Virus record (IMG/VR): IMGVR_UViG_3300027782_000341
Span: 1 to 25,112 of that record
DNA: 25,112 bases
Source of the DNA: a virus
Strand: one strand, 5' to 3'
Shown: piece by piece, positions 1-5,764 of the stretch
How the letters are laid out: the number at the start of each line of letters is the position of its first letter
Position numbering within the stretch: position 1 is the first letter of the stretch
Translations under genes and position numbers: made by a program
The notes under the pieces: generated by a model
What the model was told of the DNA's origin: nothing
The model's database searches: none
The model's input: only the letters and a program-made list of their open reading frames with translations

Positions 1-630
1 TTTCGCCATTACTGCCAGGACATCTATATCCCGCAATTGCTTGCAGTAGTAGAAGATTTAACGACTATCGAGATTCTCCCTCTACGGGAGAGGGCAAATT
101 CCGCAACAAACGCCTGGCTTGGCGTGGATGGCTGGTTTTACCGACACCCCAAACAGCGCCATTGGGTTGATCTGCACCTAGACTGGTTTGATACCCTTTC
201 TAAACAGCTAGGCGTGGAGAACCCAATACGGACTAAGTACGACCTACTCTTTGAGTACCCCGCCTTGAGGAAGAAGGTCTATCAGCCCTTTGATGTCCTA
301 ATCATCAATTGCCCACCAGGGAGCAACCAGTTACCCACCTTTTCCCCAGGCAAGTTTGAGAGCCTAACCAAGCTGCTGTGCAAGGACATGGATGTGATGA
401 CGGTCTATCCCACCAAACTATGCCCAAGCACGCTAGAAATGCACATGACCGTAACCGAGATCGGTAACCTAGCGCAATACTGCCAATACATTGTGGCGGT
501 GGACACAGGACCTCTGTGGACCACTTACAACCAATGGAACATTGACAAGATAAGGGGTAGAACCATCTACACGACAACCTTCGATTCCATAGACCTTACG
601 CCTAATACCGACATCCTTCAAAAAATCTGA
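1..630 (+). CDS. GT9-like glycosyltransferase, C-terminal part (5' end outside window)
   Basis: The frame is open from the first base, so the gene starts upstream of the window. The TTG at 37 is unlikely to be the real start because 12 sense codons precede it in frame. Two segments resemble the C-terminal half of GT-B fold, GT9 (heptosyltransferase-like) enzymes: VLIINCPPGS followed by a helix (ESLTKLLCK), and near the end YCQYIVAVDTGPLW, which matches the typical 'ADLVISVDTGPMH' nucleotide-sugar binding loop. The activity would be sugar transfer to a glycan in the cytoplasm; donor and acceptor are unknown. It is the last gene before the first non-coding region and has no visible terminator behind it. 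The family call is by motif only; a more distant GT-B enzyme is possible. Confidence 0.5.
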   Translation, partial: FRHYCQDIYIPQLLAVVEDLTTIEILPLRERANSATNAWLGVDGWFYRHPKQRHWVDLHLDWFDTLSKQLGVENPIRTKYDLLFEYPALRKKVYQPFDVLIINCPPGSNQLPTFSPGKFESLTKLLCKDMDVMTVYPTKLCPSTLEMHMTVTEIGNLAQYCQYIVAVDTGPLWTTYNQWNIDKIRGRTIYTTTFDSIDLTPNTDILQKI

Positions 631-857: not shown

Positions 858-873
858 AAAGCGCCTGATTGTT
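858..873 (+). repeat. 16-bp repeat, copy 1 (pair at 2868-2883)
   Basis: AAAGCGCCTGATTGTT here and AAAGCACCTGATTGTT at 2868-2883 differ at one base. The word TTTATCG follows 37 bp after the repeat start here and 35 bp after it in the second copy. The two copies bracket the ArdC operon in direct orientation. Confidence 0.7.
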
Positions 874-904
874 GGCATCTTTCCCGCTTTCCCATTTATC
901 GCTT

Positions 905-1036
905 ACCCCTTATATACGATTACTTACTACATTACTACGCTACTATATACACTATATATATATAGACTATAGACGATATACGATAGTCAATAGAAATTAT
1001 ATATCTATATACGATAGTTGATAGAAATATATCATA
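905..1036. repeat. AT-rich tract with two phased 22-bp repeats
   Basis: The tract is almost entirely TATA/ATAG/CTAT words. Two 22-bp direct repeats at 976-997 and 1007-1028 share ATATACGATAGT and ATAGAAAT and differ at two bases. They start 31 bp apart, close to three helical turns. This suggests iterons, a DNA-unwinding element or a bent upstream promoter element; the sequence alone cannot decide. Confidence 0.6.
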
Positions 1037-1043
1037 GCGTAAA

Positions 1044-1072
1044 TGGTTGCATAACCTAGATTTAGGTATAAT
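1044..1072 (+). promoter_or_regulatory. Promoter of the ArdC operon
   Basis: A perfect TATAAT -10 box lies at 1067-1072. A weak -35 (TGGTTG, 1044-1049) sits 17 bp upstream; the alternative TTGCAT (1047-1052) would leave only 14 bp. Transcription would start near 1079, giving a leader of about 43 nt before the ATG at 1122. The second early promoter at 3241 shares the T(G/A)GTTGCAT, AGATTT and GGTnTAATC words. Confidence 0.6.
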
Positions 1073-1096
1073 CAATCTATGCAAACTAATTGCATA
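1047..1096. promoter_or_regulatory. Candidate operator: three TTGCATA half-sites
   Basis: TTGCATA occurs at 1047-1053, its reverse complement TATGCAA at 1078-1084, and TTGCATA again at 1090-1096. The last two form a perfect 7-bp inverted repeat, TATGCAAACTAATTGCATA, right at the predicted transcription start. The first overlaps the -35 area. TTGCATAACCTA is an exact 12-bp repeat (1047-1058 and 1090-1101). A nested ACCTA-GATT-TAGGT dyad (1054-1067) abuts the -10. The layout suits a repressor, or an mRNA hairpin just before the ribosome site. Confidence 0.5.
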
Positions 1097-1121
1097 ACCT
1101 AACCTAAAGGGGATATACATC

Positions 1122-1973
1122 ATGCAACAATCAATTTATGACAATGTTACGAATAGAATTATTGAAGAGCTAGAGCGTGGCGCTGCACCCTGGATCAAAC
1201 CCTGGAATGCTGGCGTTAGTGAAGATCAAAATATTGTGAGCCATAAGCCATACCAGGGAATAAACCGTTTAATTCTAGGTATGAGCGGTTATACATCGCC
1301 GCTATGGGGTAGCTTTAAACAATGGCAAGCGCTTGGCGGTATGGTTAAAAAAGGCGAAAAGGGTACGCAAATAGTTTTTTACTCACCCATTAAAAAAGAG
1401 GGTATTAACGAAAATGGGCAAGTAGAAAACAAGAGCTACCATTGTTTGAAAAGCTATTTTGTGTTTAATGCAAGCCAGGTTGAGGGAATAGACTTTGTGC
1501 AGCCTAAGCCTACAATCGAAGTGTTTAACCCTGTACCCGCTTTAGATGATCGTATTCTAAAAACAGGCGCAACAATCAAGCATGGATTAAGCCAGGCATT
1601 TTATCGCCCTGGTGATGATTTTATTGGTATGCCTGATAAAAACATTTTCAAGAGTGAGAGCGATTATTACGCTACCGTATTGCATGAACTCACCCATTGG
1701 AGCGGCGCTAAGCATAGGCTAGATCGTACTAAGGGCGCTCGCTTTGCGGATGCTGCTTATGCTTTTGAAGAGCTGGTGGCGGAGATGGGCGCTGCATTTT
1801 TATGCCAGGATTATGGGATTAGTGGCGATTTACGCCATGCTGATTATATTGGTAGCTGGCTTAAATGCTTGCGTGCTGATAATAAAGCAATATTTAACGC
1901 TGCAGCATTAGCACAAAAAGCAGCAAACTACATAAACGAGCTAGATTGTTTAACTAACCAGGCAGCAGCCTAG
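1122..1973 (+). CDS. ardC: ArdC-like antirestriction protein (zincin-type)
   Basis: The protein has 283 residues and two ArdC parts. The N-terminal half (about 1-130) begins with the typical IYDNVTNRIIEELERG...PW.KPWN pattern and includes the W-x-x-F-KQWQALGG-x-VKKGEKG block of the ArdC ssDNA-binding domain. The C-terminal half is a metallopeptidase-like domain with HELTH at 188-192 and a downstream EELVAEMG helix (216-223) supplying the likely third zinc ligand. ArdC proteins of plasmids bind ssDNA and protect incoming DNA against type I/II restriction; that role here is inference from the family. The start is supported by AAAGGGGAT upstream. It is the first gene of a short operon with its own promoter and a terminator at 2719. 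Proteolytic activity is not established. Confidence 0.88.
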   Translation: MQQSIYDNVTNRIIEELERGAAPWIKPWNAGVSEDQNIVSHKPYQGINRLILGMSGYTSPLWGSFKQWQALGGMVKKGEKGTQIVFYSPIKKEGINENGQVENKSYHCLKSYFVFNASQVEGIDFVQPKPTIEVFNPVPALDDRILKTGATIKHGLSQAFYRPGDDFIGMPDKNIFKSESDYYATVLHELTHWSGAKHRLDRTKGARFADAAYAFEELVAEMGAAFLCQDYGISGDLRHADYIGSWLKCLRADNKAIFNAAALAQKAANYINELDCLTNQAAA

Positions 1974-1986
1974 AAAGGGGTTAATC

Positions 1987-2187
1987 ATGCAATTTTTATA
2001 TAAATCATCGAATGGCGCTGGCAAATACCTGGAATGGGATCATTTTCAAAATGTAGATGATTCGTTTTTTAGTGTAGAAAATTGTTTTACACCTAATGAA
2101 ATCGATCATATTAAGCAATTGCAGCCAGGGGAAATCCTAGATTTATCGGATGGAATCGATTTTTACGAGGTAGAGCGTTTAGCATAG
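1987..2187 (+). CDS. Hypothetical small acidic protein in the ArdC operon
   Basis: The protein has 66 residues and is acidic, with no recognisable domain, signal peptide or membrane segment. It starts 13 bases after the ardC stop behind a good ribosome site (AAAGGGG, 1973-1979), so it is surely co-transcribed with ardC. The aromatic, acidic composition (for example WDHF, DDSFF, DFYEVERLA) would fit a small binding partner or DNA-mimic-like factor, but nothing in the sequence proves this. Confidence 0.7.
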   Translation: MQFLYKSSNGAGKYLEWDHFQNVDDSFFSVENCFTPNEIDHIKQLQPGEILDLSDGIDFYEVERLA

Positions 2188-2197
2188 TGCTACCTGG

Positions 2198-2221
2198 TAA
2201 GCGCTTAGAAATAGGCGCTTA
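2198..2221 (+). other. Intercistronic hairpin
   Basis: TAAGCGC (2198-2204) pairs perfectly with GCGCTTA (2215-2221) across a 10-nt loop. No T-run follows, so it is not a standard terminator. It may stabilise or process the mRNA between the 66- and 76-residue genes. Confidence 0.45.
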
Positions 2222-2224
2222 TCG

Positions 2225-2242
2225 GATTATCACTAGATAATC
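2225..2242. promoter_or_regulatory. 18-bp perfect dyad GATTATC-ACTA-GATAATC
   Basis: The two 7-bp arms are perfect inverted repeats around a 4-nt centre. The dyad follows the previous hairpin directly and ends one base before the ATAACCTAAC leader of the next gene. It resembles a helix-turn-helix operator in size and could equally form an RNA hairpin. Confidence 0.45.
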
Positions 2243-2270
2243 ATAACCTAACTAACCTAACGGGGATTTT

Positions 2271-2501
2271 ATGGATCATACAAAAATACTTAATGCTTAC
2301 TTATCCCGCTTAACTACAGCGGATTTAGAAAATATCTTAAAGCATGATAAGCAATGCCTGGCTGCAATGCTTAACGGTAATAACAGGGCGCAATTGGATG
2401 CACAAGCGGGTTTTTATGCTGCTGTAGCTAATGCTGTAAACAATATGGCAGCTTATGACATTGCGCTAATTGAGCGTGCCATTGAGGGCGTAACAGCATG
2501 A
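2271..2501 (+). CDS. Hypothetical 76-residue protein in the ArdC operon
   Basis: The protein is predicted to be mostly helical, rich in Ala, Asn and Leu, with no membrane segment and no known motif. The ATG follows a CGGGGAT ribosome site and the ATAACCTAAC leader (2243-2252), placed exactly 18 nt before the start as in ardC. Its stop overlaps the next start (ATGA at 2498-2501). Function unknown; co-transcription with ardC suggests an early host-takeover role. Confidence 0.7.
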   Translation: MDHTKILNAYLSRLTTADLENILKHDKQCLAAMLNGNNRAQLDAQAGFYAAVANAVNNMAAYDIALIERAIEGVTA

Positions 2502-2611
2502 GCGCCAGGGCAAAATATAGCGCTTACTGTTATTGGGCAGCTAAACAAGGCATCCAGGCGCTTAGTTTTAACGCCTGGTTATCAACCAATAAACCAGGGA
2601 GATTAGATTAA
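2498..2611 (+). CDS. Hypothetical 37-residue peptide
   Basis: The start ATG overlaps the preceding stop in an ATGA arrangement and GAGGG lies about 10 bases upstream, so translation would be coupled. The product is small and basic with several aromatic residues (MSARAKYSAYCYWAAKQG at the N-terminus) and a polar C-terminal tail. It has no known domain. Spacing and coupling are the only support. Confidence 0.5.
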   Translation: MSARAKYSAYCYWAAKQGIQALSFNAWLSTNKPGRLD

Positions 2612-2698
2612 ATGATTACTTACAATGACAGTTTTCTAGATAAGGTGATAGCAATACTATCCTGGATAGCTCTATTATCGTTTTTAATGCTGTTTTAA
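2612..2698 (+). CDS. Putative 28-residue membrane peptide
   Basis: The ATG immediately follows the preceding TAA, with AGGGAG upstream (2595-2600). After a polar N-terminus (MITYNDSFLDK) the rest is one hydrophobic stretch (VIAILSWIALLSFLMLF), which could be a single transmembrane helix. It is the last frame before the terminator. Very short, so it could be chance. Confidence 0.4.
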   Translation: MITYNDSFLDKVIAILSWIALLSFLMLF

Positions 2699-2718
2699 GC
2701 GCTTTTCTCACTCATTTA

Positions 2719-2747
2719 AGGGGTTAGTATATCTAACCCTTTTTTTT
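2719..2747 (+). terminator. Intrinsic terminator of the ArdC operon
   Basis: GGGTTAG (2721-2727) pairs with CTAACCC (2733-2739) around a TATAT loop, and the stem can extend by A-T and G-T pairs. Eight T residues follow (2740-2747). This is a textbook factor-independent terminator, about 20 bases after the last small frame. Confidence 0.9.
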
Positions 2748-2867
2748 GCCTTAAAACCTGTTTAAATCGTTTTTAAAAAAATGCTTGTCATCAAACCATT
2801 TCCCATTTTCAATCGAGCTGCTGGACTTTGACTACGACTAGCGGTAGCCGTGGTTTTGAACTTCTCA

Positions 2868-2883
2868 AAAGCACCTGATTGTT
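2868..2883 (+). repeat. 16-bp repeat, copy 2 (pair at 858-873)
   Basis: AAAGCACCTGATTGTT differs from the copy at 858 by one base and is likewise followed by TTTATCG (2903-2909) and then an AT-rich tract. Confidence 0.7.
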
Positions 2884-3015
2884 CCCTCGGGCGTGTGTGC
2901 GCTTTATCGACCTGATTGGCTCTCTTTTTTCGCTACCTCATGCGCCCAGGTCATTCTGGACCTCATCCGTCAAGCCCTGGAGATCGTGAACCCCAACGAT
3001 ACCCCAAAAACCCCA

Positions 3016-3215
3016 TACATAGATGTTACTAGACGATGTATAACTCCGATGTATATACTACCTCTATGTCTATTAGAACTACTATGTCTATTCTACGAAG
3101 TTATATGATAGAGATAGTATAGGCGTATAACTCGTATAACTACGAAATATATTTTACGAAGAATAGTCTATTCGTATATATATCTATAGAAGTATATAAA
3201 TATCTATGTATGCTT
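3016..3215. repeat. AT-rich tract with several families of short direct repeats
   Basis: Seen directly: CGATGTATA at 3034 and 3047; CTATGTCTATT at 3064 and 3082; CGTATAACT in perfect tandem at 3124 and 3133; TACGAA at 3094, 3141 and 3155. A perfect 13-nt palindrome GAATAGTCTATTC lies at 3161-3173. The repeats differ from those at 905-1036, but both tracts sit in the same place relative to a 16-bp repeat and a promoter. Origin or multi-site regulatory region. Confidence 0.6.
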
Positions 3216-3240
3216 TATACAACACCAATGATTAAAATAA

Positions 3241-3270: not shown

Positions 3271-3318
3271 CTACGCTTGTAGCACCTAATCAGATAACCT
3301 AACTAGAGGACAATTCGT

Positions 3319-3528
3319 ATGAAACTATGCACTAGCTGTATGCACCTACGCTCGGGTGATGAGTGTTCTGTATTACCCCAAGTCAATCCTGTTAACGGCA
3401 AACCAATCTATTCGTTTGCATATACCTATCGCATGAATGAAGAACGATGCGGTATGGATGCCAAGTGGTTTGAAGAAGTTGACCACGAAGCGCTTGATGA
3501 ACTATCCACAATTCCATTCGGGAGATAA
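3319..3528 (+). CDS. Small zinc-ribbon-like protein
   Basis: The 69-residue product starts MKLCTSCMHL and has further cysteines in DECSV and in ERCGMDAKWFEE. C4, C7, C16 and C44 could bind one zinc ion. The CG-x(3)-KWFE ending is common in small phage proteins of unknown role. GAGGA (3306-3310) is the ribosome site. First gene of the long early operon, so possibly a regulator, but no DNA-binding fold can be named. Confidence 0.65.
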   Translation: MKLCTSCMHLRSGDECSVLPQVNPVNGKPIYSFAYTYRMNEERCGMDAKWFEEVDHEALDELSTIPFGR

Positions 3529-3531
3529 ACC

Positions 3532-3735
3532 ATGGCAAGAACCAAAGGTAGCACCAATACAACCACAACCCTACAAAGGCGGATTACAGCGCTAGAAGGA
3601 TTAATTGAACGCCAGGATGAAGCTGTTGAACAAGGGTTAGATGAGATAGCAGAGCTACGCAAGCAAGTGGACTTCTATCGCAAGCAAGTTAATCATCTAA
3701 TTGCACTACTCAACATCATCACAAGAGGTGCATGA
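3532..3735 (+). CDS. Small coiled-coil protein
   Basis: The 67-residue product has a basic, Thr-rich N-terminus (MARTKGSTNTTTT) followed by a continuous heptad-like helix (about residues 15-60, LQRRITALEGLIERQDEAVE onward) expected to form a coiled coil. It begins 3 bases after the previous gene behind GGGAGA, and its stop overlaps the exonuclease start (ATGA, 3732-3735). Tight coupling to yqaJ/recT suggests an accessory of recombination; function unknown. Confidence 0.65.
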   Translation: MARTKGSTNTTTTLQRRITALEGLIERQDEAVEQGLDEIAELRKQVDFYRKQVNHLIALLNIITRGA

Positions 3736-4637
3736 TGGCTAATGCTCAAACAGACTTTGCGCCCGAGGTACGCAATAGCGCCTGGTGGAGTGGTGATTCC
3801 CGCATGGCTGCTAATGGTCGTGCGGTGGATGTCATACTCACCAAGCAAGGTAAACGAGAAGCGCCAGACCTATCCGATGTCGAAGCGGTGCAGATGGGTC
3901 ATATCATGCAGCCTGTGATTGGGCGCTTGTTTCAAGACAAACACAAGATAGAGTTAAAGGAAGCGGACTATGCTCTCACTCACCCCAAACACGATTGGAT
4001 GCGTTCTCATTTTGATTTCATTAGCGCAGATGGTACTGTGCTTGTTGAAGCTAAAAACTATAACGCTGGAGTTCGTAATAAGTTTGATGCCGATGCTAAT
4101 CGGATTCCTGATGCTGATCTTGCCCAGCTCATACACGAATGTGCTTGTCATTCTATCGATCGTATATTTCTGGCTGTTCTATTTGGTGGAAGCGAATTCG
4201 TAACCATTGAGTTTGAGATCACCGAGGGTATGAAAGATGACCTAGTACAGCGCATGGCTAAGTTATGGGCGTATTGCAAGACCGATACCCTACCACCCGC
4301 AGAAACCATCGAGCAAACCAAGCTGGTATATCCAACCAGCACCGATGAAACGATTGTTGCAACGCAAAATGTAGAGGTAGCAGTCGCCCAGCTCAAGCAA
4401 TATAAAGCCAACATCAAGGCGCTAGAGGATCAGAGCGAAGCCCTAGAGGTAGCAATCCGCAACACCATGGGAGATAAGGGTGAGATTGTATCCATCTCAG
4501 GAGATACCTTAGTAACCTGGCGCAGTAGTAAGAGCAGTAAGCGCTTCTCAAGTGATCTCTTTAAACAAGCAATGCCTGACATTTACGAGCAGTTTGTGAT
4601 TGAGCAGCCTGGCAGTCGTAGATTTTTAGTGAAGTAA
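3732..4637 (+). CDS. YqaJ/lambda-exonuclease-type recombination nuclease
   Basis: The 301-residue protein has the YqaJ viral recombinase layout: an N-terminal DNA-end motif (RNSAWWSGDSRMAANG, 14-29), a helix QMGHIMQPVIGRLF (54-67), and the PD-(D/E)XK core with RSHFDFI (Asp95) and LVEAKNY (Glu106, Lys108). A QLIHECA helix around 132 follows. Such enzymes digest one strand of duplex ends 5'->3' for the partner annealase, which is the next gene. The C-terminal third (about 205-301) is a coiled-coil plus small domain common in phage homologues. Odd: the helix residue that is Glu in most relatives (E85 in lambda Exo) appears to be Gln60. The start may be ATG 3732 or 3735; the former overlaps the previous stop. 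Confidence 0.85.
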   Translation: MMANAQTDFAPEVRNSAWWSGDSRMAANGRAVDVILTKQGKREAPDLSDVEAVQMGHIMQPVIGRLFQDKHKIELKEADYALTHPKHDWMRSHFDFISADGTVLVEAKNYNAGVRNKFDADANRIPDADLAQLIHECACHSIDRIFLAVLFGGSEFVTIEFEITEGMKDDLVQRMAKLWAYCKTDTLPPAETIEQTKLVYPTSTDETIVATQNVEVAVAQLKQYKANIKALEDQSEALEVAIRNTMGDKGEIVSISGDTLVTWRSSKSSKRFSSDLFKQAMPDIYEQFVIEQPGSRRFLVK

Positions 4638-4661
4638 AGACACCTAATGAAAGGGGATAAG

Positions 4662-5501
4662 ATGAGCAATATTGTGAGTTTTACCGATATGTCGCAGATG
4701 GCAGAAGCAATCGCCAAAAGCGGTTTATTCGGGATGAAGGACACCAATAGCGTACTAGCGCTAATGGCAGTAGCACAAGCAGAAGGTATGCACCCCGCCA
4801 CAGCAGCACGGGATTTTCATATCATTCAAGGCAGACCAGCATTAAAAGCCGATGCGATGCTAGCAAGGTTTCAAAATGCGGGCGGTAAAGTTCAATGGAA
4901 GGATTACACAGATGAACAAGTTACAGGCGTATTTAGTCACCCCAACGGTGGAGAGCTTGCCGTTACCTGGACAATCGAACAAGCAAGCAAGATCGGACTG
5001 GTCAAACCAGGCTCAGGCTGGCAAAAGTTCCCAAGGGCAATGCTACGATCCAGGTGCATTTCAGAAGGTATACGAAGCGTCTTTCCTGGATCAGTTACAG
5101 GGTTCTACAGCCCTGAAGAAGTGGCTGATTTCGAACCCAAAGACATGGGAAAGGCTGTCAACCTCTCAGAGATTAAAAGCGATGAGCTTACCATTGACGA
5201 AGATAGCGGGGAAGTAGCACCACCCATGGTCAAGGGTAACTTTGCTGCCCATGTCCATAAACTCCATCTGTATGTGCCAGGTCAAGAAGAACCCTATGCA
5301 ACCTACTTATCCCTAGAGGATTGGATTGAGGGGTTTTTAGACATCTTTGCTCGTATTCAGAACTCAAGCAAATATGACGATAAAGAGAAAACCAAGAAGT
5401 ACAACCAATTGCGTGCTGCCAATGATGCCTTTACAAAGACATTTAGCGGTACGCAAACATCCAAGTTTTTAACCAAAATAGCTGAAATAAGGAGAGATTG
5501 A
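4662..5501 (+). CDS. recT: RecT-family single-strand annealing protein
   Basis: The 279-residue protein matches the RecT core: ALMAVAQAEGMHPATAARDF, followed by HIIQGRPALKADAMLARF, GELAVTWTIEQASKIGLVK, and WQKFPRAMLRSRCISEGIR with FPGSVTGFYSPEEV. This family coats ssDNA and anneals complementary strands, paired with the exonuclease encoded just upstream. The C-terminal part (about 190-279) is variable and helical. The start at 4662 is preferred over an in-frame ATG at 4647 because AAAGGGG (4650-4656) is correctly placed before it. The stop overlaps the next start (TGATG). Confidence 0.88.
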   Translation: MSNIVSFTDMSQMAEAIAKSGLFGMKDTNSVLALMAVAQAEGMHPATAARDFHIIQGRPALKADAMLARFQNAGGKVQWKDYTDEQVTGVFSHPNGGELAVTWTIEQASKIGLVKPGSGWQKFPRAMLRSRCISEGIRSVFPGSVTGFYSPEEVADFEPKDMGKAVNLSEIKSDELTIDEDSGEVAPPMVKGNFAAHVHKLHLYVPGQEEPYATYLSLEDWIEGFLDIFARIQNSSKYDDKEKTKKYNQLRAANDAFTKTFSGTQTSKFLTKIAEIRRD

Positions 5502-5764
5502 TGAGTAATGGACATATCGCCCAGATGGGCAAAGGCGTATTGTTTGGTAACGCTGATAAGAAGCATGAGAAAGCACCCGATTGGAAGGGTACACTCTTGC
5601 TTTCTGAGGACTACAAAGCGGGTCAAACGCTCAAGATTGCTGGCTGGACTAAGAACACCCCCAAAGGGCAGTTAATTAGCTTGTCTGAGGATACTTGGAA
5701 GCCACAAAACCCCCAGCAGTACCCCAGAGAAACCAATGCCAATGACGGTGAAGTACCATTCTGA
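5501..5764 (+). CDS. Small SSB-like protein with acidic C-terminal tip
   Basis: The 87-residue protein begins around GKGVLFGNADKKHEKAPDW and continues with short beta-like segments KGTLLLSE, TLKIAGWTKN and QLISLSEDTWKP, a pattern like small OB-fold/DUF736-like proteins. It ends NDGEVPF, close to the DDDIPF tip by which bacterial SSB recruits partners. The tail before it is disordered and Pro/Asn-rich. Its place between recT and rusA strongly supports an ssDNA role. No full SSB domain is recognisable, so direct DNA binding is inference. AAGGAGAG ribosome site at 5489-5496; the stop overlaps the next gene. Confidence 0.6.
   Translation: MSNGHIAQMGKGVLFGNADKKHEKAPDWKGTLLLSEDYKAGQTLKIAGWTKNTPKGQLISLSEDTWKPQNPQQYPRETNANDGEVPF

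Follow-up and report, generated by a model that had tools for sequence, protein, structure and literature searches.

The stretch analysed here probably represents, in a lineage of freshwater phages, the first early operon, organised as a fixed slot, lying between an upstream gene ('up') and a RecE/RecT operon, whose contents are exchanged both as a block and gene by gene; the two 16-bp repeats within it are conserved spacer boxes and not recombination ends. The locus is a swappable early slot, not a repeat-bounded moron. Exchange at the two scales, of the whole block and of single genes, is shown by the comparison of related sequences. Slots of this kind are already known, as phage early accessory regions with SAS/ESAS-like leaders, and some of the details are new. 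The features of the window, that is the complete virus record of 25,112 bases, are collected in Table 1.

Viral contigs were gathered with three queries, the RecE-like exonuclease, ArdC and 'up', the last of which is matched in 31 viral contigs, for the most part at 84–100% identity. A DNA search of annotated phage records gave one match (74%, exonuclease region only), and bacterial genomes yielded only one relative of the exonuclease (45%). In the named relative MW202753 ardC lies ~3 kb before the exonuclease gene, and the double hairpin described below is not clear there.

Table 1. Features of the early slot and its flanks (positions in the window).
Feature	Position	Strand	Basis or remark
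'up' gene, 5'-truncated in the record	1..630	+	ORF of no known family; anchors the slot on the left
Left 16-bp copy AAAGCGCCTGATTGTT	858..873	+	a single CCTGATTG box of spacer allele A; other spacer alleles without it
TA-step-rich tract upstream of ardC promoter	905..1040	+	27% TA steps vs window median 7%
-10 box TATAAT, conserved	1067..1072	+	near relatives; -35 weak
Stem-loop TATGCAA/TTGCATA, ACCTAAC leader and Shine-Dalgarno before ardC	1078..1116	+	leader and stem analysis
ArdC (ArdcN and zincin-like metallopeptidase, HELTH)	1122..1973	+	domain and structure-database matches
Small ORF B66, 3' of ardC and 5' of double hairpin; variable cassette gene	1987..2187	+	comparison of relatives
Double-hairpin RNA element	2194..2242	+	z -4.45; starts 6 nt past preceding stop codon
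Start-associated leader AACCTAACTAACCTAACGGGGAT before ORF C76	2245..2267	+	leader analysis
Small ORF C76, variable cassette gene	2271..2501	+	no Pfam or PHROG match
Small ORF D37	2498..2611	+	kept in most ardC-type slots
Small ORF E28, hydrophobic	2612..2698	+	kept in near relatives
Intrinsic terminator	2718..2750	+	stem 2718-2742 plus T-run; other stems replace it in relatives
Right 16-bp copy AAAGCACCTGATTGTT	2868..2883	+	first box of two-box element
Second box ACCTGATTGGCT	2910..2921	+	35-37 bp downstream of first box
Second TA-step-rich tract, upstream of recombination operon	3014..3240	+	TA-step content
Leader with ACCTAAC before orf69	3271..3315	+	upstream hairpin weak (z +0.79)
orf69	3319..3528	+	homology to L161 resumes in its last 36 bp (right edge of the block)
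RecE-like exonuclease, right anchor	3732..4637	+	phrog_434, E 1.8e-43
RecT-like annealing protein	4647..5501	+	PF03837, E 1.5e-09

ArdC and its transcription signals

The identification of the main gene as ardC, made in an initial annotation of this DNA, is borne out by its product, which contains both domains of the family, ArdcN (E 1.4e-33) and MPTase-PolyVal (E 2.5e-47), each above the curated cut-off, as well as the HExxH zinc motif, and which matches ArdC in the PDB (6i89, E 5.9e-53; 6i89/6sna, ~6e-53). HExxH is present in 106 of 110 matches, the four exceptions being short pieces. Judging from these families, ArdC would shield entering or replicating DNA from restriction.

The same annotation had assigned the operon a promoter of its own at 1044–1072, and this stands in part: most near relatives conserve TATAATCA, but the -35 is a poor match to TTGACA and a consensus scan misses the site. 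The strong terminator was found, and relatives keep one that is built from other stems. With a terminator and a promoter having a conserved -10 and a weak -35, the operon does in this respect resemble a moron. The genes inside, claimed to be unlike those outside, do differ in function, but the GC content of ardC (0.43) falls within that of the flanking genes (0.43–0.49), the small genes being at 0.385.

Exchange of the whole block

To describe what occupies the slot we have used a set of 39 relatives anchored on the exonuclease and having at least 3.3 kb of upstream sequence, ardC not being a selection criterion. ardC is present in 29 of the 39, an amidoligase module in 6 and neither of the two in 4; in most relatives ardC is in place between 'up' and orf69/exo. 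The amidoligase label was given to loci with an Amidoligase_2 gene, a class-II glutamine-amidotransferase-like gene or both. The former is supported by PF12224 (E 1.8e-08, above the cut-off); for the latter the match to PF13230 is below the cut-off (E 0.0011), and there is a Cys at position 2. On the exonuclease tree the label requires at least five changes, on strongly supported branches and including the sister pair L016/L030, a count that recombination within exo itself could affect. The expectation that the locus is exchanged among relatives and can hold different genes is in this way confirmed, the amidoligase module standing in place of the ardC operon. Its position hints that the amidoligase/GATase pair, a module with no known role, may act in early infection.

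The gene pair itself occupies L161:949-3258 and L030:1849-4159. At L161:3652-3787 there are three direct CCAGNNNGATGGGT repeats, with a TA-rich tract on one side and a promoter on the other.

Alignment of the window with the ardC-less L161 evidences homology up to ~661 (weaker to 699), just past the 'up' stop codon, which is resumed at 3493. The block replaced in L161/L030 is therefore 661/699–3492, between flanks that are 98/89% ('up') and 97/94% (exo) identical, and the two repeats, two AT-rich tracts and two promoters all fall within it. In fact, the exchanged block reaches ~160–200 bp to the left and 610 bp to the right of the 16-bp repeats.

The 16-bp repeats as spacer boxes

In the initial annotation the operon was taken for a moron that recombination at the two 16-bp repeats (858 and 2868) had either brought in or duplicated. 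The near-identical copies are there, with one mismatch, and are the only two at ≤2 mismatches in the 25.1-kb record. The pair is unusual in the first 5 kb, in which two pairs of 16-mers with ≤1 mismatch are seen against 0.20 expected (858/2868 and a leader pair at 1099/2252), and the right box is also present in the four of four left-allele-A loci that have a readable right spacer. Nevertheless, the comparison of relatives contradicts recombination at the repeats, which we now consider very improbable. Under this explanation relatives devoid of ardC should keep one repeat copy and one AT-rich tract; L161 and L030 have no copy, two TA-rich tracts and no scar. The exchanged unit does not end at the repeats, as both lie inside the replaced block, which extends beyond them on each side. 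Moreover, ardC is in place in relatives many of which have one or no repeat copy. An empty site, with the flanking genes adjacent, was found in none of the relatives, the ardC-less close relatives holding another module, and insertion of a moron into an ancestor is thus unsupported.

Across the whole window there are 85 families of near-identical 16-mer pairs (≤1 mismatch) against 3.5 expected, so that such pairs are not rare in this record; perhaps these are repeats in late genes. The leader pair CTAACCTAAMGGGGAT (1099, 2252) is more informative than the 858/2868 pair. A third 16-mer-like site, at 5570, is coding (KAPDW) in the gene after recT and was discarded as a coincidence.

The likeliest reading of the copies is perhaps that of putative regulator sites, operators or a silencer site placed before two early promoter regions, to which we assign slightly less than an even chance and which is compatible with the swappable slot. 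It is favoured by a two-box element, TCAAAAGCACCTGATTGTTCCC followed by ACCTGATTGGCT at 35–37 bp, that is kept across otherwise unalignable spacer sub-alleles and that occurs in 15 viral contigs, always at this locus, the pattern search having returned no other context; the three direct repeats of the amidoligase allele, flanked by its TA-rich tract and its promoter, point in the same direction. Since the loci were selected by the first box its conservation is partly due to this selection, and the flanking bases and the second box constitute the stronger evidence. On the other hand, the boxes lie ~200–400 bp away from the promoters, no regulator was identified, and the boxes are absent in other alleles, the spacers of ardC carriers coming in forms with and without them. 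A TTTATCG, pointed out earlier for its similar spacing, lies 3' of each copy in the window; sub-alleles L158/L085/L086/L108 lack the right TTTATCG and keep ACCTGATTGG.

Turnover of single genes beside leaders and a double hairpin

A finer scale of exchange resulted from the analysis of the small genes, as no two of the 22 near loci (ardC carriers) share the same small-gene content, with 26 small-gene families represented in all. Forty representatives of the small-gene families gave no informative Pfam or PHROG match; from their company and variability only, we infer that the small proteins are candidate counter-defence factors.

The motif ACCTAAC is found within 50 nt upstream in 61 of 134 distinct upstream regions of slot small genes, compared with 6 of 476 control genes and 0.3% of shuffles (nominal Fisher p ~5e-39, which overstates the enrichment because related loci are not independent). 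It starts 16–30 nt before the start codon and is never reversed, and its exact + strand copies in the window are confined to the early slot. Directly upstream of the leader a stem of at least 6 bp is present in 29% of cases, against 2.6% in shuffles. Automatic matching gave a clean junction for one present/absent pair only, the pre-ardC insert of L003 compared with the window, where the left and right identities overlap by exactly ACCTAAC; for the other 12 pre-ardC inserts no perfect partner was found in the sample, and several diverge immediately past ACCTAAC.

The element following ardC folds (2195–2242) into two adjacent hairpins. Among 27 distinct relatives 99.6% of the pair cells are standard pairs and six pairs have changed on both sides, giving a covariation score that was reached by no shuffle and approached by no slid control. 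Helix 1 is subject to a bias, the loci having been picked up with a sequence pattern located in it; helix 2 is outside the pattern and holds three of the six pairs with changes on both sides. In near relatives the element begins 6 nt past a stop codon, that of ardC or of one inserted small gene, a few distant cases being different, and the gap from ardC is 6 nt without a gene and 173–237 nt with one. It is tightly linked to ardC (seen in L003, L009, L013, L024 and others) and gave no match in the ardC-less loci searched. No Rfam family reaches the gathering score anywhere in the window, the double hairpin included. An intrinsic terminator was considered and rejected, as there is no U-run. Our guess is a putative mRNA processing or stability element.

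The small ORFs are gained and lost around ardC beside the repeated leaders, often made up of stem-loop, ACCTAAC and Shine-Dalgarno, and beside the covarying double hairpin; the leaders may supply short homology for exchange, perhaps via the RecE/RecT-like annealing system of the phage itself. We advance only tentatively, as a view that we find somewhat doubtful, that double hairpin and leaders form an RNA/DNA element of freshwater phages that has not been described before and that would both set the expression of successive small genes and provide a repeated joint for gain or loss of single counter-defence genes. Of comparable, modest plausibility is a role of leaders and hairpins confined to expression (start of translation, processing or stability of mRNA), with exchange running on homology in genes. 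This would agree with the orientation and fixed distance of the leaders to the start codon, with the compensatory stems of the double hairpin and with its placement exactly 6 nt past the stop in near relatives; against it are the L003/window junction, whose overlap is the leader motif itself, and the fact that gene content changes at leaders and hairpin. Homologous recombination in the flanking genes alone could explain much of the shuffling, leader conservation then being due to translation needs. The slot offers a testable model, in which genes are exchanged one at a time at a leader sequence.

Probable counter-restriction role and adjoining sub-slot

Relatives have a sub-slot past the ardC terminator and ahead of the recombination operon; it contains a Mom DNA-modification gene in L003, L031, L085 and L100 (PF25680, E 4.2e-38) and DNA methyltransferases in L023, L060, L068, L069, L092, L099 and L126, and in L045, L064 and L118. 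That DNA-protection genes unrelated to each other recur here speaks for a role of the slot in counter-restriction, and thereby for the counter-defence role initially proposed. The slot indicates where the fast-changing anti-restriction genes of this phage lineage (ArdC, Mom, DNA methyltransferases) are kept, and its contents, including the 26 unknown small-protein families from the 22 near loci, are a concrete list for counter-defence screens. Within the sub-slot, the Mom-like gene lies at L003:6695-7306 and methyltransferases at L023:2562-3146 and L045:2376-3446.

Comparison with known systems

ArdC-N is common in conjugative elements and rare in phage-type polyvalent proteins (PMC5512222). 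The protein has in common with ArdC of plasmid pSa the ArdC-N and zincin-like MPTase domains, HExxH and the length; there it belongs to a conjugative element, whereas here it is in a phage early operon and its activity is predicted only. Homologues exist in named phages, e.g. Caulobacter phages (41%). Plasmid leading-region anti-defence islands (PMC11541004) likewise combine anti-restriction and methyltransferase genes with unknown neighbours, placed for early expression, but here the locus is that of a phage and only anti-restriction-type functions are seen.

Regarding the leaders, the SAS/ESAS of cluster K mycobacteriophages are short asymmetric repeats before the starts of different gene families, mostly in one orientation, with an inverted repeat upstream in about half, and a recombination role was suggested by the authors (PMC3203893). 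The window leaders are similar in being oriented repeats just before the starts of unrelated genes, with an upstream inverted repeat in a subset; they differ in sequence, ACCTAAC as opposed to GGGATAGGAGCCC in cluster K, so that by sequence they are not SAS/ESAS, and in the additional covarying double hairpin after ardC. Promoter early stem loops (PeSL) of T4-like phages are described as stem-loops between early genes tied to gene shuffling (PMC4503421); the likeness is by that description, and a promoter at each element is not among the features shown here. In LUZ24-like phages (PMC3890496) a PF12224 amidoligase is also near a class-II amidotransferase in the early region, but here the pair sits in the slot of the ardC operon of close relatives.

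Flanking tracts and an additional reading frame

The TA-rich tract upstream of the ardC promoter is present in all alleles tested, including the amidoligase ones. The two tracts could serve as origins, as promoter elements or as DNA to which proteins bind. They have ~25% TA steps and lie 5' of both early promoters, their composition being kept across alleles. In some relatives an extra ORF of 53–58 aa (MQSTVVLNWRMPESK...) is observed between the leader and orf69 (L013:3900-4076, L014:2711-2872, L019:3379-3540).
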